DNA of 64,000 bases from Streptomyces odonnellii (lineage in GTDB: Bacteria > Actinomycetota > Actinomycetes > Streptomycetales > Streptomycetaceae): contig NZ_LATD01000073.1 in the NCBI RefSeq assembly GCF_000981895.1, forward strand, positions 1-64,000, given 5' to 3'. The notes beneath the pieces were generated by a model. The model saw nothing but the letters and a program-made list of their open reading frames with translations, was not told the origin of the DNA and ran no database searches. Positions 2,534-42,496 of the stretch are shown here, piece after piece. A program made the position numbers and the translations under genes. The first letter of the stretch is position 1. Every line of letters starts with the position of its first letter.

Positions 2534-4008
2534 TCAGTGCTGCGGGTCACGCAGACCGATCATCCGCAGCACCGCCTTGCGCGAGCGGTCGTTCTTCCAC
2601 TGCGGAACGGCGTTGGCGCCGAGACGGGCCATGAGGCGGCTCTGGTAGAGCACCGACTGGGGGTTGCTAAAGGCCTCGAAGCCGATCTCGCCGCCCTTGT
2701 AACGGCCCATGCCGCTGGGGCCCACGCCACCGAAGCCCATGCTGTTGGACAGGGCGTGCAGGGCGAGTTCGTTCACAGAGACGCCCCCGCTGGACGTGCG
2801 CCGGACAATGGTGTCCACCGCGCGCCGGTCGTGTCCGAAGATGTAGAGGCCGAGCGGTTTGTCCTTGGTGTTGACGATGTTGATGGCCTCGTCGAGGGTC
2901 CGGTAGGTGTCGACGGACAGCACGTGGCCGAAGACTTCCGTCTGGTGCAGCCACAGGCTCTCGTCGGGGTTGACGACGATGGTCAGCGGCAGCTGGCGGG
3001 TGGTGCTGGTGGGGGCTCATCGGCGTAGATGTCGGGCTGGATGACACGGAAGCCCTGTGCACGCGCCCCGTCGATGAGGGCGCTGCCCCGGTCGTAGGCC
3101 CGCTGGTCGATCATGGCGCAGGCCTCGGGATTGCCGTGCAGGATGGGGAAATCCTCGTTGTTCTTGCGCAGTACGGCGTCGAGGCTCCAGCGCTTCCTCC
3201 GGCACCAGGGCGCAGTCGACGGCGAGACAGACCTGTCCGCCGTTGCCGAGCCGGCCTTGGGCGATCTTGGAGCCCATGGCGTCGATGTCGGAATCCAGCA
3301 GGATGAACGCGGGGCCTTCGCCGCCGAGTTCGAGGATGACCGGCGTGAGATGAGGCGCCGCGGCGGCGAGAACCTTGCGACCGATCTCGGTGCCACCAGT
3401 GAAGAGGAACTTGTCCCAGGGCAGCGCGGCGACGTGCGCAGAGACCTGGGCGTCGCCCTCGACAACCGCCGGGCCCCTCTCGTCGAAGCTCTCGGCGACG
3501 AGTTCCTTGAACAGGGCCGTGAGACGTGGCGTCGACTCGGACGGCTTGATGATCACACTGTTGCCGGCGGCGAGAGCCTCGATCGCTGGGTCGAAGGCGA
3601 GGCTGACCGGCGCGTTGAACGGTGACATGATGCCGACCACGCCGAGGGGCTCGTAGACGAGGCAGTTGCGCACCCCGATCAGGACGAGGGCGCCAGAGAA
3701 GCGGCGCCGGGGCCGCATCCAGCGCTTGAGAGGGCGTTTGACGTGCCGCGGATGGAGCAGCGGCGGCATGATGTCGGCGCTGAGGAGAGGATCTGATCGC
3801 GGCTGCGGTGGCCGAAGTCCTCCACCAGCATGTCGACAAGCGCGACCCAGTGGGTCTTGAGCAGTCGCTCTACGCGGTCAAGGCTGTCCACGCGGTCGGC
3901 GAAGGACGGTGCGTGTCCCGGCGGGTAGGCGTTCTTCTGCAGGTGGAAGATCCGGTCGATCTCGGCGAGAGGAGCGGTGGTCGTCGTGGGGCGGCGGAGG
4001 GAGACATT
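2534..4008 (-). pseudogene. Aldehyde dehydrogenase (coniferyl-aldehyde-dehydrogenase-like), multiply frameshifted
   Basis: All parts of an NAD(P)-dependent aldehyde dehydrogenase are present but spread over several frames. The N-terminal piece reads AEIDRIFHLQKNAY and DSLDRVERLLKTHWVAL (about 3860-3985). The cofactor region reads PLGVVGIMSPFN, FTGGTEIGRKV and LELGGEGPAFI (about 3300-3650). The catalytic Cys is in GGQVCLAVDCALVPEE near 3220, and the C-terminal piece reads SGGVSVNELALHALSN to 2534. That order and the LVPEE signature resemble the coniferyl aldehyde dehydrogenase group. At least three frame changes are needed, so no full enzyme can be made. Confidence 0.85.
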
Positions 4009-7217: not shown

Positions 7218-8341
7218 GTGAATGTCAAGCTTCGTATGCGCATGGCCGCCGCTGCCGGCGTCGCCACTCTCGGTCTGAGCCTGTGCACGGCCCCGGCGTC
7301 GGCCGAAACGCCTGAGTTCCGCCAGATCGTCGGCGTGGGCTCCGACACCGCCCAGGACGTGCTTATCGGCCTGGGCGAGGTCATCCCAGCCCCGAACAAC
7401 ACCCCGGACAATCAGCTCATCGCGTCGTGCGACGCGACGGGCGCCTCGGTCGTCAAGTCGCGCGCGGTCGGCTGCGTGATCCCGCGGCCCAACGGCTCCT
7501 CGGCCGGTGTCGACGCGCTTTGGAACGCCATCCCAACAGCACAGGCTGCATCGACTCCGCCCGCTCCTCCCGGGGCCCGGCCGACACCTCCGCGACCCGG
7601 CTGACCTGGAACCGTTCGCCAAGGACGCGGTGACCACCGTCGTCCGGTCGAGCAGCGCCCTCAACGACGGCGTGGGCCTCACCACCGCCCAGCTCACCCA
7701 CATCTACCACTGCGTTCCCTCGGCGCTCACGCGCACCTACCAGACGTCGAGCGGTCCCGTGCTCATCACGCTGAAGCCGCTGCTGCCGCAGGCCACCTCC
7801 GGCACCCGGACCTTCTTCCTGGAGAAGATCGGTGTCACCGAGGCCCAAGTCGGTGCCTGCGTCAACGGGCACGGCGCAGCCGAACGACGGCACCGCCTTG
7901 ACCGACCCCGGCCACATTGCCCCGTACCCCATCGCCCAGACAGCTGGCGTCACCACAGACCGGCATGGTGTCACGGCCCTCACCCGTGTGAACGGCGTCG
8001 CGCCGCGCATCGCCGGCAGGCTAAACGCTGCCTTCCCCTTCAACCGTGACGTCTACAACGTCGTCCCAACCGCCAGGCTGACCGGTGGCGCCACCCCCGA
8101 CGCCGACCTGATCGACGCCTTCGTCGGCAACTCCACGGCATGCGCCCAGCCAGCCATCATCGAGCGCTACGGCTTCGCCACGATCGCCAATCGCGGCAGC
8201 ACAGTCTCAAAGGCGAGCGTTGACGACCCGGGGCGGGCACGGACCGCTGGCTTTGCCCCGGCACTCCTCGCAGCGTTACCGGAACGCCCAAATACGCCCA
8301 GTACGAGGACGTCCCTCCACTTCACAATGCACAGTGTCTGA
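7218..8341 (+). pseudogene. Secreted PstS-like substrate-binding protein, frameshifted
   Basis: It begins with a clear signal peptide (MRMAAAAGVATLGLSLCTAPASA) followed by FRQIVGVGSDTAQDVL, the N-terminus of a Streptomyces exported family related to phosphate-binding proteins. After about residue 95 the match changes frame near 7530 (TGCIDSARSSRGPADTSATR) and again near 7880. Later pieces include TTAQLTHIYHC, LKPLLPQATSGTRTFFLEKIG and RDVYNVVPTARL. The parts are collinear, so two or more indels broke one gene of about 370 codons. The end at 8341 is not the family's usual terminus, so the tail may also be altered. Confidence 0.75.
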
Positions 8342-8580: not shown

Positions 8581-10110
8581 TCAGCGGGCAACCGCTTTGA
8601 CCAGCTTGGCCACCAGTTCGGGGTGGTTGCCTTGGAAGAAGTAGCGGGCGTCTGTCTCGACGGTCCATCCGGCCTCCCGGAGAGCGTGAGCAAGGGGCGC
8701 GTCCGGTTCCACCAGGGACGCGTGGGCGAAGAGGGAGCGGGCCGCGGTGGACCAGGAGTCGTCAGCCTGCGCGTGCAGCGCGAGACCGCTGTCGAGATCG
8801 TCGTCCGACAGGTAACAGATCACCGTGGTGAGACCGGGGATGTCCAACCACCTGAATCCGAGGGCCGGGTCGCCGTCCGAGCTCCAGCCGTCGGTGACCA
8901 TCAGCAGTACGGGACGGGTTCCCTCGGACGCATGGGAGAGTTCGCGGTGGAAGCGTTCTGCGGCGGTGTAGAGTGCCTGCCGCATCGGCGTGCCGCCGTA
9001 GATGAGGTCCTCCAGCAACGTGGCGTTGCCGCGCCCGGCGCCCTCCGCCAGGCGCAGGGCGTGATCCAACGGAAGTGTCGTGTCTCCGACTTCGACCACC
9101 GCCTCGAAGAGCAGCGGCATCACGGTCGTCCGCAACGTGGTGAGGATCTCCTCGGGGGCCACCTTGCCCGGCGCTGCCAACTGGAGCAGTGCTTCGCGGA
9201 CCAGTCGAAGGTGTGCGACGTGCCTCATCATCTGGCCGGCCTGCCCGAGAGCGGAGACCATGCCGATGTCCCCGGCGGCCCCGTGCAGTGCCTTCACTGA
9301 CTCCATGGGGTTGTCGGCTTGTAAGTGCGTGAGGACCAGTTGGAGTTGGTCCGGTGTCAGGGCGGGTGTCAGCCTGGCCAGTGTGGCGGCGAGGTCGGGG
9401 TGCCGGCGCAGGCGGTGGACGATGGTGGCTACTTGGCCGGGTTGGGTGAGGTAGACGGAGGCAACCTGCTCCCAGCCCTCACGACCGTACTCGGCGGCCA
9501 GTTGGCGTAGTTCCGCCAGGTCCGGGTCGCTCCCGGAGGGAACCCGCGTAGCGGCCGGGGTAGCGGGGCGGTCCGGGCCCGCTGGCCGCTCTTCGGACGT
9601 TGCGTTCAGCAGGGTGAGTAGTGAGAGTACGTCGCAGGCCGCAGGCGCGACCGAGTTTCCGGACCGGCTGTGCCAGCCCCTGGTGGCGCCGTCCACGACG
9701 CCGTGCTGCAGCAATCGGGTGAGAGCGCCGGAGGCCGCCCCGTCGATCACGTTGTGGAAGAGGGAGCTCAGTGCTCCGCCTCCGCCGCCGTGGCGGAGTC
9801 CGAAGGCGTACACGAACACGTCGACTCTGGTGGCACTCTCGCGCTGATATCCGGCGGCCTGCGAGGACCAGTCCTCCAACAGCAGTTCCTGGAGGCTCTT
9901 GTGGAGTTGATGGAGACGTGACGTCCCGTCCGTCCCCGGCGCGTTCGCACTCAGCTGCATAGAGCCGGAGACGTCGAGTACCACCCCGAGCAGCACAGGG
10001 GAAGGGGATGCTGGCTCGGGCAACGCCGGAGGCGATACCGACGGCTCAGGCTGCGCAGCCAGCGTTGCTGGTACGGTTTCGCCTGGCTTTCGCCTGTGCC
10101 ACAGTCTCAT
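8581..10110 (-). CDS. von Willebrand factor A domain protein with a split metal site
   Basis: A 509-residue protein from the ATG at 10110. A vWA MIDAS motif DVSGS is at residues 46-50, but the matching Thr (GGTPMRQAL, about 372) and Asp (VTDG, about 407) come more than 300 residues later. A large helical insert therefore appears to interrupt the domain, or two half-domains pair. The insert contains VTLTHLQAD-like helices and polar linkers. The frame is open far upstream of 10110 but there overlaps the divergent gene and has no protein character. It is divergent from the next gene across only 75 bases, implying shared control. Confidence 0.75.
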   Translation of the reverse strand: MRLWHRRKPGETVPATLAAQPEPSVSPPALPEPASPSPVLLGVVLDVSGSMQLSANAPGTDGTSRLHQLHKSLQELLLEDWSSQAAGYQRESATRVDVFVYAFGLRHGGGGGALSSLFHNVIDGAASGALTRLLQHGVVDGATRGWHSRSGNSVAPAACDVLSLLTLLNATSEERPAGPDRPATPAATRVPSGSDPDLAELRQLAAEYGREGWEQVASVYLTQPGQVATIVHRLRRHPDLAATLARLTPALTPDQLQLVLTHLQADNPMESVKALHGAAGDIGMVSALGQAGQMMRHVAHLRLVREALLQLAAPGKVAPEEILTTLRTTVMPLLFEAVVEVGDTTLPLDHALRLAEGAGRGNATLLEDLIYGGTPMRQALYTAAERFHRELSHASEGTRPVLLMVTDGWSSDGDPALGFRWLDIPGLTTVICYLSDDDLDSGLALHAQADDSWSTAARSLFAHASLVEPDAPLAHALREAGWTVETDARYFFQGNHPELVAKLVKAVAR

Positions 10111-10185
10111 CCGATGAACGACCTTTCCGGCAGTGCGGCTGCACCCGGCCACGCCGGATGAACCGATCGCTTCAGGACGGAGCCG

Positions 10186-11925
10186 ATGGCAGGGAACAGT
10201 TCCGATCTCGCCGAAGGCGAGGGCCTGGGGGCCTCGTTCTTGGGGTTGCTGGTTGATGTCTCCTTTTCCATGATGCACCCGGTGCTCGACACCGGCGGCG
10301 GAAAGCGGAGATCCCGGCTGGAAACGGTACGGACCGCATTGGACGAGGCCGTCGGCAGGGCCAGCGCGCTGCAGGCAAATCCCCACGCTCCTCGGCAGGA
10401 CCAACTGAAGGTGCTGACACTCGGGTTCGGCTTCCGACCGTTTCGTGGGGCGGCCACCCCGGCGGCCGGCGACGGACGGATCCGCAGCATGCTCACCGCC
10501 TCCGAGGACCCATCGGACGCGGTCATAGGAATGGACGCGCTGGTGCGGGAATGGCCGCAGGTCAAGACCCGGCTGTCGGCGAGGCGGTGGCAGATGCTCG
10601 GCCCCACCACCCCGATGGCAGAGGCCCTGGACATCGCCGTGCCGACGCTGGCCTCGGCCGCCGGCCGAGGCGGGCAGTCCATGCTCTGCATCATCACCGA
10701 TGGGGAGCCGTCCGAACCGGACGGCGCGGCCAGACTCAGGAAGAGGTGCCGGGAGCTGAGGCAGTCCGGTGTGGCCGTCATGACCTGCCTCCTGGGTGCC
10801 GAACCCCTCGGCGAGCCAGGCCGATTGGTGGCCACCGCCCCCGCCAACTGGCCCGCCGCGGCGCAGTTGATGTTCGACTGTGCCTCCGAACTCGGGGCGG
10901 ACGATCCCATGCGGGGCTATCTGCGCGAGTGGCACTGGACCGCCGATCCGGACGCCCGGCTGTTCGCAGCCGTACAGGTACACGACGAATTGCCGCACCT
11001 GCTGAGCGCCATGCTCGACTACCTTGCCCCCGCTGACGATGCGGAAGACACCGATATCACGTCAGCTTCACCCTCGGCGCTGACGACGCCATCGAAGCCG
11101 CTGGTCCACGCCACACCGCACAGCACCTCGCCCACTACGGCCTACGGAAGTTCGGTCAACGCAGAAAACGCTGAGCCGTTGGGAGTGGTGTTCGTCCACG
11201 GGATCACTTCGTCGGCCGCCACATGGAAGGACGTGCGTGCCTCTCTGGCCCGGACCGAGGACTTGGCCGATCTGGAGCCGCAACCCCCTTTCGAGTACGC
11301 GACCGGTCTGTTCGGCAACAAGCCGTTGAGCCTGAAGAAGCCCCTGAGCCTGAGCGGCGCCCTGCGCGTGCTGCCGTCCCTGGACACCATCGCCGACAGC
11401 CTCATGTCCTACCTGGAGACCGAGGCTGCGGACTTCCAGCGCTTGGTCCTGGTGGGCCACAGCATGGGGGGCCTCGTCATCCAGCGCTTCCTCGCCCGCA
11501 TGCTAGCCCGCAGGCGCGGGACCGACTTGGCCCGCATCCGCAGGGTCGTCCTGCTTGCCTGCCCCAACCAGGGTTCCGACCTTGCTCTCGTCCTGCGCAA
11601 AAAACTCTCCCTCGGCAATCGGCAGGAGATTGCGCTCCGCCCCTTCGACGAGCCGGTGAACGACACTCGCTCAGTCGTACTCCAGCACATCATCAATGCC
11701 CATGCCGTCACCGAGAGCAGCTGCCCCATCCCCTTCTCTGTCTATGCAGGCGAGGAGGACGGGGTGGTCTCGGCCGCTTCCGCCCGAAGCAGCTTCCCCG
11801 ATGCAGCCGCCCTACCAGGCAACCACTTCACTATCCTGAGCAATGAGCGAACCTTCAGCACCCTCCAGCGGCTCCTGCGCGAGGCTTCCACCAGCGAGCC
11901 CCTCAGACCACCACCGCCGCCCTAG
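10186..11925 (+). CDS. Fusion of a vWA domain and an alpha/beta hydrolase
   Basis: A 579-residue two-domain protein. The N-terminal vWA domain (about 18-275) has a complete MIDAS: DVSFS at 24-28, Thr in GPTTPM at 141-142 and Asp in ITDGEPSE at 172. A linker of about 50 Ser/Thr/Ala-rich residues leads to an alpha/beta hydrolase (about 330-565) with the oxyanion strand VVFVHGITSS and nucleophile elbow GHSMGG (Ser426). Asp525 and His547 plausibly complete the triad, as in PGAP1/lipase-like proteins. The start has AGGACGGAG upstream. The pairing suggests metal-dependent protein recognition controlling a lipase or esterase; the substrate is unknown. Confidence 0.8.
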   Translation: MAGNSSDLAEGEGLGASFLGLLVDVSFSMMHPVLDTGGGKRRSRLETVRTALDEAVGRASALQANPHAPRQDQLKVLTLGFGFRPFRGAATPAAGDGRIRSMLTASEDPSDAVIGMDALVREWPQVKTRLSARRWQMLGPTTPMAEALDIAVPTLASAAGRGGQSMLCIITDGEPSEPDGAARLRKRCRELRQSGVAVMTCLLGAEPLGEPGRLVATAPANWPAAAQLMFDCASELGADDPMRGYLREWHWTADPDARLFAAVQVHDELPHLLSAMLDYLAPADDAEDTDITSASPSALTTPSKPLVHATPHSTSPTTAYGSSVNAENAEPLGVVFVHGITSSAATWKDVRASLARTEDLADLEPQPPFEYATGLFGNKPLSLKKPLSLSGALRVLPSLDTIADSLMSYLETEAADFQRLVLVGHSMGGLVIQRFLARMLARRRGTDLARIRRVVLLACPNQGSDLALVLRKKLSLGNRQEIALRPFDEPVNDTRSVVLQHIINAHAVTESSCPIPFSVYAGEEDGVVSAASARSSFPDAAALPGNHFTILSNERTFSTLQRLLREASTSEPLRPPPPP

Positions 11926-12176
11926 ACACACGGAGGACGCTTTCCGGCGCTTCTGCCAGCAGTGTCCACATGGCCTCGCTGGCCGCTGCGCCAAGTGCCG
12001 CGTTCCAGCGGGCCGTGGCCAACCGGGCGGTTCGATGCCCAGCACGTCGGCGTGGACCCCCTTGGTGGCGTCTCGCTGAACAGCGGCAGTCCAAGGCGAC
12101 GCGACAGGGCGCGGGCCGGGGTTGCTTTGCCCGCGCCCGGTAGCCCGTTGACCAGGACGTCGAATGGCTTGGTCAT
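11922..12176 (-). pseudogene. P-loop kinase / AAA-type protein fragment
   Basis: From 12176 it reads MTKPFDVLVNGLPGAGK with a good Walker A, then ARALSRRLGLPLFSETPP. The rest of the match (KGVHADVLGIEPPG, then EAMWTLLAEAPESVL) is in other frames, and the gene stops within about 90 residues. It is the broken start of an adenylylate/shikimate-kinase-like P-loop protein, lying 3' of the vWA-hydrolase gene on the opposite strand. Confidence 0.6.
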
Positions 12177-12568
12177 GCCCTGCGGCGCCTGGGCCTGCAC
12201 CGCCCGCCCGCGCGATGGTGTTCAAGCCCGTCGAATCCGCCCAGGTTTCCTGGCGAGCCGTGAACGCAACCCACCTCGTTGCCCTCGTCCGCACCGGAGC
12301 CCGCTTCGAACGCGGTCACCTCCTCGATCGCCCCGGGGAGGCCGCGCCCCCAAGGCACGACCAACGCGACCCTCACGCTCAGAGCAGAGACTCCAATGGT
12401 CGAACTGGCGACGACACCATCAAGCCATCGCCCGCACCTGCCACTACCCACGCCGCACGTGCCCCGACCGGTTGAGTCACGAACCACCGCCGTCCTGACG
12501 AGCCATCAGGCCACTACACTCCGAACAGGCTCTCCGACCAGCACAAATGGACAAACGCTGCTGGAGTA
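12177..12568. other. No supported gene
   Basis: About 390 bases between two broken genes. Short open frames on both strands show no family resemblance, and no repeat or RNA feature was seen. Confidence 0.45.
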
Positions 12569-13753: not shown

Positions 13754-14272
13754 GTGCCTGAGGCGGGTGAGGGCTCCACTCCGGCTGACCGCCCGGGTTG
13801 CCAGCGGCTCGGTGATGCAGCGGCGGAGATGTTCGTGGAGGTGCAGCGGTCGGATACGAAGGCAACGACGTTGTGCGGTGTGACGGGCGGTCTGCTGGCG
13901 GTGGACGCTGCGGCGTTGTCGACCGTGCCGAGGTCCTGTTGGCTGCCGGTGGCTGCTCTGGCGTCTGCTGCGGTCCTTCTTGGCGTGGCGCTCGTCGTTG
14001 CCCTGTCTGCGATCCGCCCTGTGCTACCGCGCCGCGGTGGGTTCAGAACATTCGCAGGGTCTGTCCCGGAGCAGGACGGGGCTGAGGAGGTCGTAGCGAT
14101 CTTCTCGGCGATGGGTTCTGGCCAGTGTGTGCTGGTGGAGGCAGAGCGGCTGGTGTTGTTCGCCGGCTTGGCTCAGCGGAAATTCCGTGCGGTGAAGTGG
14201 GCAGTCGATCTCACGGCAACTGCCCTGGGGATGGCCGGAATTGGCTTATTGAGCGTATACATCACTTCTTGA
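13754..14272 (+). CDS. PycTM/DUF5706-like membrane effector
   Basis: A 172-residue protein with GTG start and a clear AAGGAG 9 bases upstream. The pattern EVQRSDTKATTLCGVTGGLL followed by two hydrophobic segments (about 40-58 and 65-88), a polar stretch with VVAIFSAMGSG, then LAQRKFRAVKWAVDLTATAL and a final hydrophobic segment matches DUF5706. That is the transmembrane effector (PycTM) class of Pycsar anti-phage systems, which damages the membrane once a cyclic nucleotide signal is made. It is first in a tightly spaced operon with a cyclic-nucleotide-binding protein and a nucleotidyl cyclase, which supports this reading. Activity is inferred. Confidence 0.75.
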   Translation: MPEAGEGSTPADRPGCQRLGDAAAEMFVEVQRSDTKATTLCGVTGGLLAVDAAALSTVPRSCWLPVAALASAAVLLGVALVVALSAIRPVLPRRGGFRTFAGSVPEQDGAEEVVAIFSAMGSGQCVLVEAERLVLFAGLAQRKFRAVKWAVDLTATALGMAGIGLLSVYITS

Positions 14273-14310
14273 GAATATCGTGGTGGATGGGCATCACATT
14301 CGGGGGGTGT

Positions 14311-14970
14311 ATGTATCAGCCGCATGTCTCGGTCATCGGTGACGATCTTTGGTCGCAGTTGTGTCAGCTGGCTCCGGTTCGTGTGCGTCCGGCCAGGAGC
14401 GTGCTGTTACGGCAGGGGGATCCGGGTACCCACGTCATCTTGCTGGTCTCCGGATCCACCTTGATCACGCTCACCGGATCGCATGGCGAACGGACGCTGC
14501 TGGCGGTACGCGGGGCAGGTGAACTGCTGGGCGAGCTGGCGGTGTTGGACAATCAGCCACGGACCGCGTCGGTCATCGCCGCGGAGGACTGCCGGGTGCA
14601 CATCGTTCCCACTCCTGACTTCCTGGCCTTTGTCGACCGCCACGATCTGCAGGCCGCGCTGCTGCGTCACGCCATCGCGCGCGTACGTGAAGCGGAGACC
14701 GTACGCCTGGAGATGGCCACTTCGGCCGTGCCCGTGCGCCTGGCCTCGGCGCTCGCACGGCTGCTCCAGGCCGCGTCGGCGGGCGGTGCGGAATACCTCG
14801 TGCGGCTGACGCAGCTGGACCTGTCACAGCTGATCGGCGCGTCCCGCAACGCCGTGGGAGCGGCCCTGAAACCGTGGCGCGAGCAGGGATGGCTCGCCAC
14901 GGAGGCCGCCGGCGGACTCATCATCCGCGACATCACATCGATCCAGTCACACGCCCACGCCCAGACGTGA
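14311..14970 (+). CDS. CRP/FNR-family regulator with cyclic-nucleotide-binding domain
   Basis: 219 residues. The N-terminal cyclic-nucleotide-binding barrel (about 10-125) has an intact phosphate-binding cassette at 70-90, GELLGELAVLDNQPRTASVI, with the conserved Glu75 and Arg84. After a long helix the C-terminal winged helix (about 160-210) reads LTQLDLSQLIGASRNAVGAAL, a standard Crp HTH. I chose the ATG at 14311 because GGGGGG lies 5-6 bases upstream; the open frame runs further upstream into the previous gene. It sits between the PycTM-like gene and the cyclase, so it probably senses the cyclase product and controls the operon or acts as its receptor. Confidence 0.88.
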   Translation: MYQPHVSVIGDDLWSQLCQLAPVRVRPARSVLLRQGDPGTHVILLVSGSTLITLTGSHGERTLLAVRGAGELLGELAVLDNQPRTASVIAAEDCRVHIVPTPDFLAFVDRHDLQAALLRHAIARVREAETVRLEMATSAVPVRLASALARLLQAASAGGAEYLVRLTQLDLSQLIGASRNAVGAALKPWREQGWLATEAAGGLIIRDITSIQSHAHAQT

Positions 14971-15086
14971 CCGACCGCACCGGCCCGGTGCCCAGCACTG
15001 GGCACCGCCGACGCCCGGGCGCGTCCAGCATGAGGCAGGACACCCACTCGGGTAGTTCCCCAACTCGATGGAAAGGCTGCTGCCCC

Positions 15087-15905
15087 ATGCCCTCTCTCAT
15101 CCCGTCCGATGTCGCCGATGTGCCGCCGGAACATGCTCTGTTGACCGTCGACATGAAGGAGTACAGCCAGCTCCCCGAAGCGAAGATGGCGCCCGCGCGG
15201 GCCGATCTGGACAGCATGCTGACGACGGTGTTCGCTCAGTGCGGGATCGGCGACGCGACGCCGCTCGGCGCCGTCAAGGACCGCGGAGACGGCGCCATCT
15301 TCGTGCTGCCGGCCCGGCACGCGGCACGCCTGATCGACCCGCTCCTCGTCCTCCTCGGTCAGGCACTCGAGCGGCGCGAGCAGACCCGGCTGGCCAGCGC
15401 GCCAACGATCCGGCTGCGGGCCAGCGTGCACGTCGGTCCACTGGCGCCGCCGGACCACCGGGGGGATGCGGCCAACGACGCCTGTCGGCTGGTCGACAGC
15501 GACGCGGCCCGCCGGGCCATGACCGCAGCGGTGGACCACGGAGTGCTGCTGGCTGCCGTGATCTCGGACACCGCCTATGGCCGCGCGGTCGCCGCAGGCC
15601 GCACCTCGGCTCTCAAGGAGCAGCACTTCCACCGGGCCACCGCCCACGTCGAGGGCAAGCCGGGCTTCGAGCAGACCTGCTGGCTCTTCGTCCCCGGGCT
15701 GGTGCCTTCGGTGCTCACCCCCTACCTCACCCACGACAGCGACGCCGTGCCCGACGGCCGACCCAGCCACGCCGCTCAGCGCAGCACGAAGAACACCATC
15801 GCCGACAAGCGCGGCGATACCGTACGCCAGAAGGGCAAGGCCAGCGGCAGGGCCCGGCTGATCCAGGTCGGCCGCGACTACATTCCCGGTCAGGAGCAGT
15901 CATGA
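15087..15905 (+). CDS. Class III nucleotidyl cyclase (PycC-like)
   Basis: 272 residues from the ATG at 15087 (GAAAGG upstream). The class III cyclase core is complete. Metal ligands are Asp22 in LLTVDMKEYS and Asp68 in KDRGDGAIF. Base-recognition positions are Lys64 and Asp123 (PPDHRGDAAN), and the transition-state pair is Asn130 and Arg134 (NDACRL). The Lys/Asp pair is what adenylyl cyclases carry, but Pycsar enzymes making cCMP or cUMP belong to the same fold, so the product is not certain. About 100 residues after the core are basic. The stop overlaps the next start (ATGA), showing translational coupling. Confidence 0.83.
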   Translation: MPSLIPSDVADVPPEHALLTVDMKEYSQLPEAKMAPARADLDSMLTTVFAQCGIGDATPLGAVKDRGDGAIFVLPARHAARLIDPLLVLLGQALERREQTRLASAPTIRLRASVHVGPLAPPDHRGDAANDACRLVDSDAARRAMTAAVDHGVLLAAVISDTAYGRAVAAGRTSALKEQHFHRATAHVEGKPGFEQTCWLFVPGLVPSVLTPYLTHDSDAVPDGRPSHAAQRSTKNTIADKRGDTVRQKGKASGRARLIQVGRDYIPGQEQS

Positions 15906-17932
15906 CCGACGCCGAGGGCACCGGGACGGTGCAGCAGCAGATCGAAGCGTCCGGCCAGGCACAGGTAACTCAGGTCGCTGGCGACTACGAAGAGCACCAC
16001 CACCAGTACGTCCGGGGCTGGCAGTACCTGCGCAGCGCCAGTGTGGACGACAGTGAACTGGACCTCGCGGGGCACGCGTTCGTCGATCCCCCCGGCCCGC
16101 AGGGATCCGGCCAGGTGGCACAGGCCGTCAGTATGCTCAGCCGCCCCTACCGCAAGAGCCACGTCCTGGTGCTGTGCGGGGAGGCAGGCACGGGACGGCG
16201 CACTGCCGCGCTGCACGCACTACGCAAGGCGGGGGTGCCCAGGAAGCAAATCAGCTGGCTGATCCTGGACTGGGACCAGCCTCGCACCGAGCAGATCCCC
16301 CACACCGGGGGACGCGCATTCATCCTGGACCTGACTGGCTATCAGGTGTTGCCGGAGGACTTCTACACCGGACTTGCCGACTACCAGAAGCAGGCACAGG
16401 CCGCCGATGCCGTTCTGGTCATCCTGGCTGATTCGAACGGCTGGAACCCAAGGACCCTGTCGACCGTGCCCACCGTGCACCTCGCACGCCCCTCGGCCGC
16501 AGAGGTCGCCGAGGCCCATCTGCGCCACCTCGCTGCCGGTCGGATGGACTGGCTGACGCACGATCCGCTCAACGACCTGCTCGCCCCGGCGGCGCCGGCA
16601 TCCGACGGCGCCCGGCTGGCCCGGCTCATCGCCGAGGCCAAGGACGACGACCAGTCCGCAGTCGGCAAGCAGTTCACCGACTGGCAGAAGCATCTGGAAA
16701 CCTGGTTCGAGCGACACTCCGCGCCGGGAGACCTGCAGGAGCGCGCACTGCTGATCGCGGCCGCCCTACTGGACGGAGCTCCGGCCGCCGTCGTACTGGG
16801 GGCCGCGGACCAGCTGTTCACGGAAGTCGGTGGTGAGCTGCCGCGTGGTGGTGCGCTGTCCGGCCGTGACCTGGACAAGCGGCTGGACGAGATCGACGCC
16901 TCGTACACGGATGACGAGGGAATCTCCCTGGAGCAGAAGCAACGTGGGCTGTCCGGGGCCGCGCTGAAGTACGTGTGGCGGCAGCGGCCACAGCTGCGGC
17001 CCGTGCTGCTGGAGTGGGCCTCCCAGATCAGCGCACCCAACAAGATCGCCGTTCGTCATCTGCAGCGCATCGCCGACTGCCTGGTGCCGCTGTCCCTGCT
17101 GCCCGGCGGATCCACCGTGCTGTCGGTGGCCAGGCGGTGGATCGAGACCGATCGGGTAGCGCACCGTCAGCTTGCCATCCACATTCTGGAGACCATGGCA
17201 CTCCACCCGGTGGCCGGGGTCGCCGTCCGCAAGCAGCTGTACGACTGGGCCCAGCAGAAGACAACCGGCGAACAGCTGATCGCCGCAGTGGCCGCGATCT
17301 GTGCGGGCGAGTTGGGCCAGCGGTATCCCCGGGTCGCCCTGACCCGGCTGCGGCTGCTGGCCTCCCGCGATGACGACCAAGCCCGCGACGCCGTCGCCGA
17401 CGCGGTACGCACCCTGGCAAGCACTCCCGAGCAACGCGTCCTGGTGCTGTCGGAGATCGTGGAGTGGGCCGAATCCACTGACAGCACCATTCGAAAGGCC
17501 GGAGCAAGCACCTTTTTGGCCCTGACCGACATCACCAGCGACGTTCTCCTGCCGCTGCCAGCAGACCAGGAGAGCACCGGCGAGGCCGTCGACGCTCCCG
17601 ATGTGCTGGCCGGTCAGCTGTTCGTCCGCGGCTGGCGCGCGGCCTTGCAGGAGCCCACGGCAGCGCAGGCGGCGTACCGGCATCTGGCGGCCTGGCTGGA
17701 CTCGCCCAAACTCGAGGACCCCCAGGTCCTACCTCTGGCGGCACAGGTGATGCGCGGATACGTGGGCCAGGAAGGCCCGTCCGGCCTGCTAGTGGGCTCG
17801 CCCGACAGCTCCGAGCTGGGACGGGCCCGGCGCGCACAGCTCCTCACCCAGCTCATCTCGGAGGCGGCCTCCCCTGCCGACCCCAGCGCCGTGGCACCGT
17901 CCGGCGGTAACGGCGCCGCCGTGACGGCGTGA
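15902..17932 (+). CDS. STAND-like ATPase with degenerate P-loop and helical-repeat C-terminus
   Basis: 676 residues, coupled by ATGA to the cyclase. The N-terminus is polar with QQQIEASGQAQVTQVAGDY and HHHQYVRGWQYLR. A P-loop-like segment VLVLCGEAGTGRRTAALHAL (about 80-100) has Arg-Arg where Walker A has Lys-Thr, so ATP hydrolysis is doubtful. AFILDLTGY and ADAVLVILADSNGWN resemble later strands of the ATPase. From about 270 the protein is helical and HEAT-like up to about 640. By position it could be the regulator or scaffold of the cyclase; no effector domain is seen. I know similar proteins only as uncharacterised Streptomyces proteins. Confidence 0.7.
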   Translation: MTDAEGTGTVQQQIEASGQAQVTQVAGDYEEHHHQYVRGWQYLRSASVDDSELDLAGHAFVDPPGPQGSGQVAQAVSMLSRPYRKSHVLVLCGEAGTGRRTAALHALRKAGVPRKQISWLILDWDQPRTEQIPHTGGRAFILDLTGYQVLPEDFYTGLADYQKQAQAADAVLVILADSNGWNPRTLSTVPTVHLARPSAAEVAEAHLRHLAAGRMDWLTHDPLNDLLAPAAPASDGARLARLIAEAKDDDQSAVGKQFTDWQKHLETWFERHSAPGDLQERALLIAAALLDGAPAAVVLGAADQLFTEVGGELPRGGALSGRDLDKRLDEIDASYTDDEGISLEQKQRGLSGAALKYVWRQRPQLRPVLLEWASQISAPNKIAVRHLQRIADCLVPLSLLPGGSTVLSVARRWIETDRVAHRQLAIHILETMALHPVAGVAVRKQLYDWAQQKTTGEQLIAAVAAICAGELGQRYPRVALTRLRLLASRDDDQARDAVADAVRTLASTPEQRVLVLSEIVEWAESTDSTIRKAGASTFLALTDITSDVLLPLPADQESTGEAVDAPDVLAGQLFVRGWRAALQEPTAAQAAYRHLAAWLDSPKLEDPQVLPLAAQVMRGYVGQEGPSGLLVGSPDSSELGRARRAQLLTQLISEAASPADPSAVAPSGGNGAAVTA

Positions 17933-18693
17933 GCATGCTGCGCCGGCGCGGCAGACCCGCCCAGCCCGCACCGGATGCGGCAGGCGCGGGTACGGCTTAT
18001 CCGCTCGTGCTGAGCGACGAGCGGATGGCCAGCCGCATCAGCAGTGTGTGCTTCACCGTCCGCATCACCGGGAGCTGGCGGTGGACGCATCCCAGTGACA
18101 CGGGCCGGGGCGACATGGCGGTACCAGCGCGCGAGCACCTGCGCCGGCAGGCCACAGGAATCCTGTGCCAGCACTCCGTCCTGGATCTCGGAGTGGCTCA
18201 GGACGCCGCCAACTCATCCCTGACACAGCGTGGTTGCCCTATGCCCGGCCTGGAGACCAGCGGCACGGCCGAGCTGAGCGTCGCGGCCGCGGACCGTGCC
18301 CTGGCCGAGGAACATGCCCGCCAGCAGCAGGCCGCAGACCTCGAACACGGTAAGGAGCTGCACCGCCTGGCCCAGCTGCAGCGGGTGCTTGCCGACCCGG
18401 ACCTACGCCGCGTGTGGTGGATGGCCCAGTTCCCCGACCGCTTCAACGACCTCGCAGGCCTTGCCCAGGCGCTGGAGGGACTGCCCGCGCCGCAGGCGAC
18501 CCAGGACGACGACCTGCGCGGTGACATCCGGCGCTTCACCGACGACCTCGTCAACACCCTGCACACCCCGCAGCAGCGCGAGGTCTTCATCCAGGCCCTC
18601 GTCCAGACTCTCACGGCCCTCGGTCACCAGCGCCTGGCCACCGCCGCCGCCCTCCGGCACCGCCCTCATGATCCCGGGAGCACACCGGCATGA
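17929..18693 (+). CDS. Unknown protein of the cyclase operon, helical
   Basis: 254 residues, beginning with a GTG that overlaps the previous stop (GTGA); an ATG two codons on is an alternative. The N-terminal half contains AREHLRRQATGILCQHSVLD and AQDAANSSLTQR. The second half is a long charged helix (about 115-165, DRALAEEHARQQQAADLEHG) followed by RVLADPDLRRVWWMAQFPDR. The layout of a beta-rich domain and then a long helix recalls SPFH-type membrane scaffolds, but that is only a resemblance. Tight coupling on both sides makes it part of the same system. Confidence 0.65.
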   Translation: MSMLRRRGRPAQPAPDAAGAGTAYPLVLSDERMASRISSVCFTVRITGSWRWTHPSDTGRGDMAVPAREHLRRQATGILCQHSVLDLGVAQDAANSSLTQRGCPMPGLETSGTAELSVAAADRALAEEHARQQQAADLEHGKELHRLAQLQRVLADPDLRRVWWMAQFPDRFNDLAGLAQALEGLPAPQATQDDDLRGDIRRFTDDLVNTLHTPQQREVFIQALVQTLTALGHQRLATAAALRHRPHDPGSTPA

Positions 18694-19100
18694 ACCTCCA
18701 CACCGCACGCTGGCTCCTAGCCCCCGTGCGTCAGCTGCGCACCCGCCGACTCATGGCCCAGCACGGCCCGACGCTCGCCTACCACACCGCCTGGGCCCTG
18801 ATCACCCTGCACAACGCACCGGACGAAACCGCCCTCGTGCGCGCCTGGACCCGCGAGAACCCCAACACCGCCCCCGGCATCCACTACGACCACTGGCCCA
18901 CACTGAGCCAAGCCGAACAGCAACGCCGCCTCAGATGGCTACGCAGACACGGACGCTCCCCCATCCAGCTCCTCCAACTCGACGCCAGCCTCATCCACAG
19001 CACAGGCCTCCACGTCCCCGACTGGGGCTGCCCACAGATCCCTCACGAACAGAACGGCGCGACGCCGCCTCTCTGGTCGCAGACCCGCGAGCATCCCTAG
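18690..19100 (+). CDS. Small basic protein, last gene of the cyclase operon
   Basis: 136 residues, start overlapping the previous stop (ATGA). It is rich in Trp, Arg and His, with helices ARWLLAPVRQLRTRRLMAQH and LAYHTAWALITLHNAPDET and a later RRLRWLRRHGRSPIQLLQLD. No known domain or membrane segment is recognised. Its end marks the operon's end; about 1 kb without a clear gene follows. Confidence 0.6.
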   Translation: MNLHTARWLLAPVRQLRTRRLMAQHGPTLAYHTAWALITLHNAPDETALVRAWTRENPNTAPGIHYDHWPTLSQAEQQRRLRWLRRHGRSPIQLLQLDASLIHSTGLHVPDWGCPQIPHEQNGATPPLWSQTREHP

Positions 19101-41959: not shown

Positions 41960-42139
41960 GCTCCAGACCCCACCCGCCCGGCACGGCAAGGCACCGCGCG
42001 GCCGGGGACACAGGCCGCGGCGTCTGGCGGAGGGCGTACCGCTCTCCGGCGTACGGACGTCGTCAAGGAGTAGTCGGGCCTGGGTACAACCGTCCTCGAT
42101 AGCGTGCTGAGGAAGTTCGTGAATATTGGGGAGGGCTTC

Positions 42140-42496
42140 ATGCCGGAAGGCCAGGGCGGTACCTACAACCACGTGGGAGAAGGAGCAAGGATCACCGGCC
42201 GGCTGATCCAGGCGCGCGACATCACCGGATCCATCACCTCCGGCCCGGACGGTCTCACCATCACCGGCGCGGCCGACGGCGAGAACCGGGAGCCGGACGA
42301 CGCGGACGTCCACAACCATGTCGCCGCGGGCGTGGAGATCGGCGGTCAACTGATCCAGACCCGCACCATCACCGCAGCGCCCGGCCAGTCCGTCCGGCAA
42401 CGCCCGAGGAAGACTGCGAAGAGATTCGTCTGGCCGACCGTACTCGGTGCACTCGCCGTCGTCATAGCGGTGTTTACGCTGTACGTGGGCCTGTGA
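42140..42496 (+). CDS. Small membrane protein with two amyloid-like signalling motifs
   Basis: 118 residues from the ATG at 42140 (GGGGAGG 7 bases upstream; a GTG at 42104 is less likely). Two related segments occur: YNHVGEGARITGRLIQARDI (about 10-29) and HNHVAAGVEIGGQLIQTRTI (about 60-79). They share N-H-V-x3-G-x2-I-x-G-x-L-I-Q-x-R. A basic linker leads to one C-terminal membrane segment, VLGALAVVIAVFTLYVGL. Short Gly/Gln/Ile motifs of this style are used by bacterial NLR-like proteins and partners for RHIM-like amyloid signalling; assigning it here is inference. The next gene is a broken STAND-TPR protein, a typical partner. Confidence 0.65.
   Translation: MPEGQGGTYNHVGEGARITGRLIQARDITGSITSGPDGLTITGAADGENREPDDADVHNHVAAGVEIGGQLIQTRTITAAPGQSVRQRPRKTAKRFVWPTVLGALAVVIAVFTLYVGL

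Follow-up and report, generated by a model that had tools for sequence, protein, structure and literature searches.

A divergent pair of vWA proteins in Streptomyces odonnellii as a candidate two-gene conflict module with an exchangeable output

In the systems described in the available text of two studies, the vWA domains of bacterial conflict systems are explained through an ATP-driven MoxR partner, and both vWA proteins with a C-terminal effector and alpha/beta hydrolases within conflict systems are published themes (PMC7159879; PMC8195603). A different layout, given in the available text of a 2021 review, consists of a Bell effector and an NLR with a common amyloid motif, and the same text asks about bacterial signalling amyloids in NLR-independent pathways (PMC7889193). 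The word 'amyloid' is absent from PMC7159879 and occurs in PMC8195603 only within a reference, and 'Bass' in the latter names an author. Here we describe a locus of Streptomyces odonnellii that compares with both layouts and coincides with neither. The window analysed is a 64,000-nucleotide stretch (C620:1-64000) of a 100.6-kb contig, from a host genome of 8.28 Mb in 648 contigs. It encodes two divergent vWA proteins, P0001 (A-type) and P0002 (B-type), the second of which is fused to a C-terminal alpha/beta hydrolase.

On balance we favour reading this pair as a two-gene biological-conflict module, serving immunity or regulated cell death, that combines a vWA-vWA switch with an exchangeable output at the C-terminus of the B protein. 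Our confidence is moderate, because one other genome is a small base for the comparison. Such a MoxR-free and NLR-free switch has the appearance of a rare form of cell defence, apparently undescribed so far. A literature search on amyloid or BASS motifs with vWA, including Streptomyces, gave no such vWA system among the entries listed, and a search on vWA, hydrolase effectors, NACHT and anti-phage systems gave no matching paper in the library searched.

Two vWA pairs with different proposed outputs

P0001 and P0002 (509 and 579 amino acids) are encoded by frames that are open over their full length and are separated by exactly 75 bases, the gap given in a first-pass annotation of the window. 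Their third-position GC contents (GC3 of 0.81 and 0.83) are typical for coding sequence here. These values, together with a divergent pair about 33% identical in a second genome, lead us to regard both open reading frames (ORFs) as real genes.

Pfam vWA scores for P0001 and P0002 fall below threshold (16.3 and 15.7 bits, where the cut-off is 27), and we therefore based the vWA call on three other observations. The five positions of the MIDAS motif (DxSxS, T, D; D46, S48, S50, T374 and D407 in P0001) are invariant in all four aligned proteins. The PADLOC model TerY matches P0001 across 49 residues (E 3.7e-7), as the only PADLOC match of this protein, and does not match P0002 in the same scan. 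Finally, P0001 and P0002 match each other at 35-36% identity across about 125 residues (E ~2e-8). On these grounds we take the two proteins to be vWA paralogues. In P0001 a first vWA half is followed by an insert of about 250 residues and then by the second half; the insert is partly helical in a poor model from four sequences (mean pLDDT 53), and the model of P0002 is likewise poor in its vWA half. Because the most hydrophobic 19-residue stretches are modest (Kyte-Doolittle means of 1.34 for P0001 and 1.47 for P0002), both proteins look cytosolic, and the hydrolase, as the proposed output of the window pair, is probably cytosolic as well.

The C-terminal part of P0002 matches Abhydrolase_6 (Pfam, E 3e-8). 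Ser426, Asp525 and His547, along with H425, G428 and G429, are invariant in 23 sequences (P0002 and 22 of 32 relatives), an alignment that leaves out broken relatives and some near-duplicates and from which alone the triad is judged. Outside its loops the domain is predicted with confidence; means over 10-residue blocks are mostly 85-97, with dips to 54-73. The best PDB matches in Foldseek are the thioesterase TesA, BioH3, an esterase and lipases, a generic fold that does not fix the substrate. With elbow, triad and fold all present, this part of P0002 belongs to the alpha/beta hydrolase superfamily as a serine hydrolase, and the triad proposed in the first-pass annotation stands. A lipid is the likely substrate by analogy, since the available text of PMC8195603 assigns to membrane-lipid hydrolysis those alpha/beta hydrolases that are joined to a Death-like domain in bacteria.

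A second pair was identified in one genome of the order sample, G478, which belongs to the same genus. It lies on an 8.855-Mb contig, with about 79 kb between the pair and the contig end. Its A-type protein (34% identity over residues 29-504, E 2.3e-51) is encoded divergently from a B-type vWA protein, with 69 bp between the corresponding ATGs; in full alignments G478 A and G478 B are each 33% identical to their window counterparts. G478 B is without a hydrolase, and its C-terminus reads ...NAISDGTFSGPVVQSGTIGQVSFH... Beside it, in convergent orientation and 330 bp away, lies a gene for a 152-residue protein (L083:1964-2422) ending in ...NSTISGGSFSGPVLMGRDFSEITF..., without a Pfam match and with a modest most hydrophobic stretch (1.25).

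The 152-residue protein is a member of a family (51.6 bits with a hidden Markov model, HMM, of the family tail) that has homologues in 39 of 150 genomes of the genus, the window's own genome being without one. An NB-ARC gene scoring above the Pfam cut-off lies near the family gene in 12 of 20 fetched loci; these were all the visible candidates, the Pfam scan covered these 12 of the 20 loci, and 12 of 12 were confirmed. Four of the 12 NB-ARC proteins start with a motif resembling the family tails (L140, L141, L143, L149). Because this arrangement matches the published Bell and NLR layout, we call the family Bell-like, an analogy in which the label comes from gene layout and not from published BASS or Bell profiles. 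In another locus, a 1272-residue protein that starts with a similar motif, SNRIEGGEFHHPVVQAGNVGELHIH, is encoded across the Bell-like gene from the NB-ARC gene (L152:6190-10008), possibly giving two sensors for one effector.

The tail HMM, built from 19 of the 20 Bell-like loci, gives G478 B a score of 16.0 bits. Among 7,541 background ORFs the highest score is 9.3 bits, in a background that excludes G478 and the Bell-like loci and counts some ORFs repeatedly where loci overlap, and the best of 2,000 shuffles of G478 B reaches 6.1. The alignment of the G478 B tail to the tail of its neighbour beats all 1,000 shuffles. Chance adjacency of G478 B and a Bell-like gene is estimated from the family frequency at about 1 in 10,000, a figure that would be higher if such genes cluster on chromosome arms. 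We regard the C-terminus of G478 B as a putative signalling-type motif facing a Bell-like neighbour. P0001, P0002 and G478 A are not matched by the HMM, and a Bell-type motif in P0002 itself was accordingly rejected.

Two MIDAS vWA proteins are common to the window and G478 pairs, while the part behind the B vWA differs, and we therefore interpret the vWA pair as the switch and the B C-terminus as the output. The vWA pair appears to be the constant part and the hydrolase one exchangeable output. Both outputs would be drawn from the NLR/STAND toolkit, by direct fusion in the window and by a signalling-type motif in G478. There is less support for taking the lipase as what defines the module, since it is the vWA pair that appears constant.

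Relatives of the hydrolase and surroundings of the pair

P0002 has matches in 26 of 391 other genomes of the genus (22 strong and four weak, E 3e-4 to 1e-3), and none of these matches outside the host covers the vWA part, all of them starting at query residue 300 or later (at least 300). In a relatives sample it was matched in 12 of 61 genomes, the host included. The plasmid collection was likewise matched through the hydrolase part only (best 20 of 23 records), and the phage collection searched with P0002 gave no match. A search of genome contigs with whole P0002 returned a single locus, the frameshifted hydrolase relative L040 of Streptacidiphilus sp. 4-A2, which at 80% is the closest relative.

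We examined 32 loci of hydrolase relatives (L040 and L046-L076), 20 of them with Pfam. A P-loop pattern lies behind the hydrolase in 17 of the 32. Seven of these 17 were scanned with Pfam, and an NTPase domain was matched in every one, in some cases below cut-off; the domain is NB-ARC in L065, L069 and L076, and AAA_16 or nSTAND in L051, L055, L067 and L068. Three relatives (L047-L049) instead carry EAD2, which the available text of PMC7159879 treats as an adaptor of conflict systems. FG-GAP follows the hydrolase in L050, and WD40 does so in the frame-split gene of L074. A weak Macro match (E 0.005) is located behind the hydrolase of L056:6447-8249. The relative at L054:9529-11154 has a macro-domain-like part by eye only; ADP-ribose sensing is possible for such parts.

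The closest intact relative (L046, 69%) is encoded on a plasmid of Streptomyces sp. NBC_00464. The C-terminus of its hydrolase is two copies of VTAGGDIIGSAIG, and the product of the gene that follows, an NB-ARC and TPR protein, reads VTAAGDIIGSAFG in its N-terminal part; the motif VTAxGDIIGSAxG is common to the two. The hydrolase stop and the NB-ARC-TPR start overlap as ATGA (L160, NZ_CP107900.1 73330-77060). RefSeq places the start of the second gene (WP_327713731.1) further downstream and excludes the motif; this annotated start is probably too far downstream, with the motif lost as a result. Type I-E cas genes lie 2.7 kb beyond the NB-ARC-TPR gene.

These contexts suggest that the hydrolase family is a mobile module of NLR/STAND conflict systems, with relatives mostly in conflict-type architectures. 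The pairing in G478 and these contexts lend support, at the level of sequence, to the earlier proposal that the pair is an effector with its regulator; the membrane damage suggested there for the effector is a hypothetical activity. Divergent pairing is indeed kept in G478, though in one genome only and with a partner that lacks the hydrolase. Conservation is thin, and the pair is neither unconserved nor made up of a hydrolase whose homologues always stand alone in metabolic settings.

Coordinates of the pair are collected in Table 1.

Table 1. Features of the vWA pair in the window
Feature	Position	Strand	Basis
P0001, A-type vWA protein: MIDAS vWA with ~250-aa insert; proposed constant regulator	8581-10110	-	MIDAS alignment, PADLOC, low-confidence model
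Divergent intergenic gap, 75 bp; putative promoter region by position alone	10111-10185	.	
P0002 vWA domain (B-type), MIDAS intact	10186-11070	+	
P0002 linker	11071-11160	+	model pLDDT <50
P0002 alpha/beta hydrolase domain, residues 326-579, catalytic Ser426, Asp525, His547; proposed exchangeable effector	11161-11925	+	

Several further features of the surroundings were observed. A partial aldehyde dehydrogenase at 3017-3769 is apparently broken. DDE_5 transposases are encoded at 23-1372 in the window, about 7 kb from the pair, and at L082:18019-18762, directly beside the G478 pair. The region 14125-19100 encodes a Crp-like regulator (cNMP binding, E 1.3e-19, with HTH), a 343-residue protein that is nucleotide cyclase-like by eye, a 676-residue protein in which GEAGTGRRTA is P-loop-like and a VTQVAGDYEEHH motif stands at the N-terminus, and two small genes; genes of this region other than the Crp-like one have no convincing Pfam match. 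Located 2 kb from the pair, these genes could form a second operon for conflict or signalling. Within a 130-residue protein at 42104-42496, the segment GRLIQARDITGSIT looks similar to the signalling motifs by eye. With the tail HMM the protein scores 5.1 bits, not above shuffles, and Pfam gives no match for it.

Weighing the explanations against known systems

We propose a mechanism for the favoured conflict module. P0001 would bind P0002 through metal-dependent vWA contacts and keep the output off. Some trigger, perhaps read by the P0001 insert, would alter this contact, upon which the hydrolase would be released or clustered and would cleave an ester, probably of a lipid, so that the cell stops. 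A trigger-controlled contact between A and B is reasonable because MIDAS domains bind peptides via a metal (available text of PMC7159879). The vWA-vWA contact may inhibit or activate, inhibition being the direction chosen in our model.

Several observations weigh against reading the pair as a conflict module, beginning with its distribution. A-type proteins were found in none of 391 other genomes of the genus, in one of 196 other genomes of the order sample (G478), in none of 344 others of the class sample and, besides G478 itself, in none of 247 G478 relatives. These samples overlap, and weak matches (E 1e-6 to 8e-4, open frames of 229-904 residues) in 3, 1, 11 and 13 of their genomes, respectively, were set aside as ordinary vWA. 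A B profile gave one weak match (E 2.2e-4) among 197 others of a phylum sample. Only one other pair was found, that of G478, and because its B protein is without the hydrolase, the vWA-hydrolase fusion is seen only in the window among the genomes searched. P0001, G478 A and G478 B are unmatched in the plasmid collection, and no relative came out of IMG/VR scans based on alignments of A and of B. Judged from these sampled genome sets, the pair appears very rare but real.

Other points on the same side concern the comparisons made above. Eight of the 32 hydrolase relatives are unexplained or broken (L040, L052, L053, L054, L057, L058, L061 and L075), including the frameshifted closest one, whose part behind the hydrolase has no Pfam match. 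For the motif of L046, one of 1,000 shuffles equalled the observed alignment score, and the segments are rich in glycine and alanine. Of the 12 NB-ARC proteins encoded near Bell-like genes, four (L146, L147, L158, L159) are SARP-type regulators with BTAD; they are not plain NLRs and may not serve as immune sensors. The P0001 model is too weak for its insert to be named. Finally, the pair could be a relic, because its neighbourhood looks decayed: a secreted-looking protein is split over frames in the broken ORFs at 7218-8341, and a P-loop kinase-like fragment occupies 11922-12200 (AAA_18, E 0.0011).

A decaying relic without current function would account for these broken genes on either side and for the transposase at 23-1372, yet we give it a low probability: both frames are fully open, MIDAS and triad are intact and GC3 has typical coding values. 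We think it similarly improbable that P0002 is an esterase with a housekeeping role, in lipid or antibiotic metabolism for instance, and that its vWA part is there to bind proteins. The generic fold matches (TesA, BioH3, an esterase, lipases) would suit such an enzyme, as would one of three plasmid regions with the hydrolase, in S. clavuligerus, which lies beside biosynthesis-like genes. Against this, the other two plasmid regions are near cas genes and near TPR and integrase genes, respectively, the hydrolase family is patchy in the genus (the 26 of 391 genomes above), and fusion or coupling of its relatives is to STAND/NB-ARC, EAD2, WD40 or FG-GAP parts.

Two further explanations draw on described vWA systems. 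The pair might be a remnant of TerY-like stress or phospho-signalling, in which vWA proteins from vWA/phosphatase/kinase triads act as scaffolds of kinase circuits and the hydrolase is a chance addition. P0001 has no PADLOC match other than TerY, and 278-residue weak vWA relatives lie two genes from kinase-like genes in L113 and L118 (Pkinase E 1.5e-4 and 7.5e-6, below cut-off), the gene between them being PP2C-like by eye only. A PP2C in these triads was not confirmed by Pfam, the L113 gene being unmatched. This account we judge unlikely, given that no kinase or phosphatase was matched among 14 other window ORFs scanned with Pfam, that A and B are mutual vWA paralogues in divergent orientation and not in one operon, and that the output part differs between the window and G478 pairs. 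P0002 might also be an orphan of the MoxR-vWA ternary systems, a vWA component with effector that uses a MoxR ATPase encoded elsewhere. Its order, vWA and then effector, does match the published component in the available text of PMC7159879 and PMC8195603, and the host genome has three matches to the MoxR family model PF07726, all on other contigs. The 100.6-kb contig itself has none in the same scan, as the first-pass annotation had observed for its surroundings; none was noticed among the genes listed for roughly 20 kb to each side of the G478 pair, where no scan with a MoxR model was made; and the second vWA protein has no counterpart in the published descriptions, as far as their available text goes. 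We attach little likelihood to the orphan explanation.

Within the conflict-module reading, a more specific version is that the paralogous vWA pair replaces the NLR/STAND NTPase as sensor-switch of cell-death signalling and links to the effectors of NLRs along the two routes that NLRs use, by direct fusion, as with the window hydrolase, or by an amyloid-type motif that would template a Bell-like effector, as in G478. We put this forward tentatively, as possible and somewhat doubtful. If true, immune signalling of the amyloid type would operate with no NLR, and vWA signalling with no adjacent MoxR or other NTPase, and the small size of the module would make both points testable in the laboratory. 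A MoxR-free vWA pair would need another way of setting its threshold.

The locus shares features with several known systems. Like the MoxR-vWA ternary systems (VMAP, iSTAND; Kaur 2020, PMC7159879), as far as their available description goes, it has a vWA protein that ends in an apparently exchangeable effector; the use of alpha/beta hydrolases as associated parts and multicellular actinobacteria as hosts are further common ground. Unlike them, the window pair has no linked MoxR and has a second, divergent vWA protein; VMAP and iSTAND have no Pfam match among the 14 other window ORFs scanned. Because MoxR is unlinked, the pair is not a MoxR-vWA ternary system as defined; it is like these systems in architecture, and its outputs recall the NLR systems. 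TerY, with a match of 49 residues, is the closest named vWA model for P0001. TerY-like vWA triads differ in the kinase and phosphatase that are missing from the scanned neighbours of the window pair, so that we do not class it as a TerY-like triad.

The EACC1 two-gene system, in the available text of Kaur 2020, is similar in that a constant gene is paired with another whose C-termini vary. Pfam matches neither EACC1 nor caspase in P0001 or P0002, and the pair is therefore not an EACC1 system; one such system, with a caspase-nSTAND1-WD40 protein, is encoded about 8 kb from the G478 pair. STAND/NB-ARC proteins with an N-terminal alpha/beta hydrolase (17 of the 32 relatives by P-loop) use the same hydrolase family, whereas the hydrolase of P0002 is C-terminal to vWA and an NTPase is lacking.

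NLR amyloid signalosomes, with their BASS motifs and Bell effectors (available text of PMC7889193), offer a further parallel. G478 B and its Bell-like neighbour appear to carry like motifs, and the L046 hydrolase and its NB-ARC-TPR neighbour have a motif in common. The difference lies in the sensor position, which would be taken by the vWA pair and not by an NLR, and in P0002, which is a direct fusion without a motif. The G478 version of the module would provide a concrete three-gene candidate for NLR-independent amyloid signalling.

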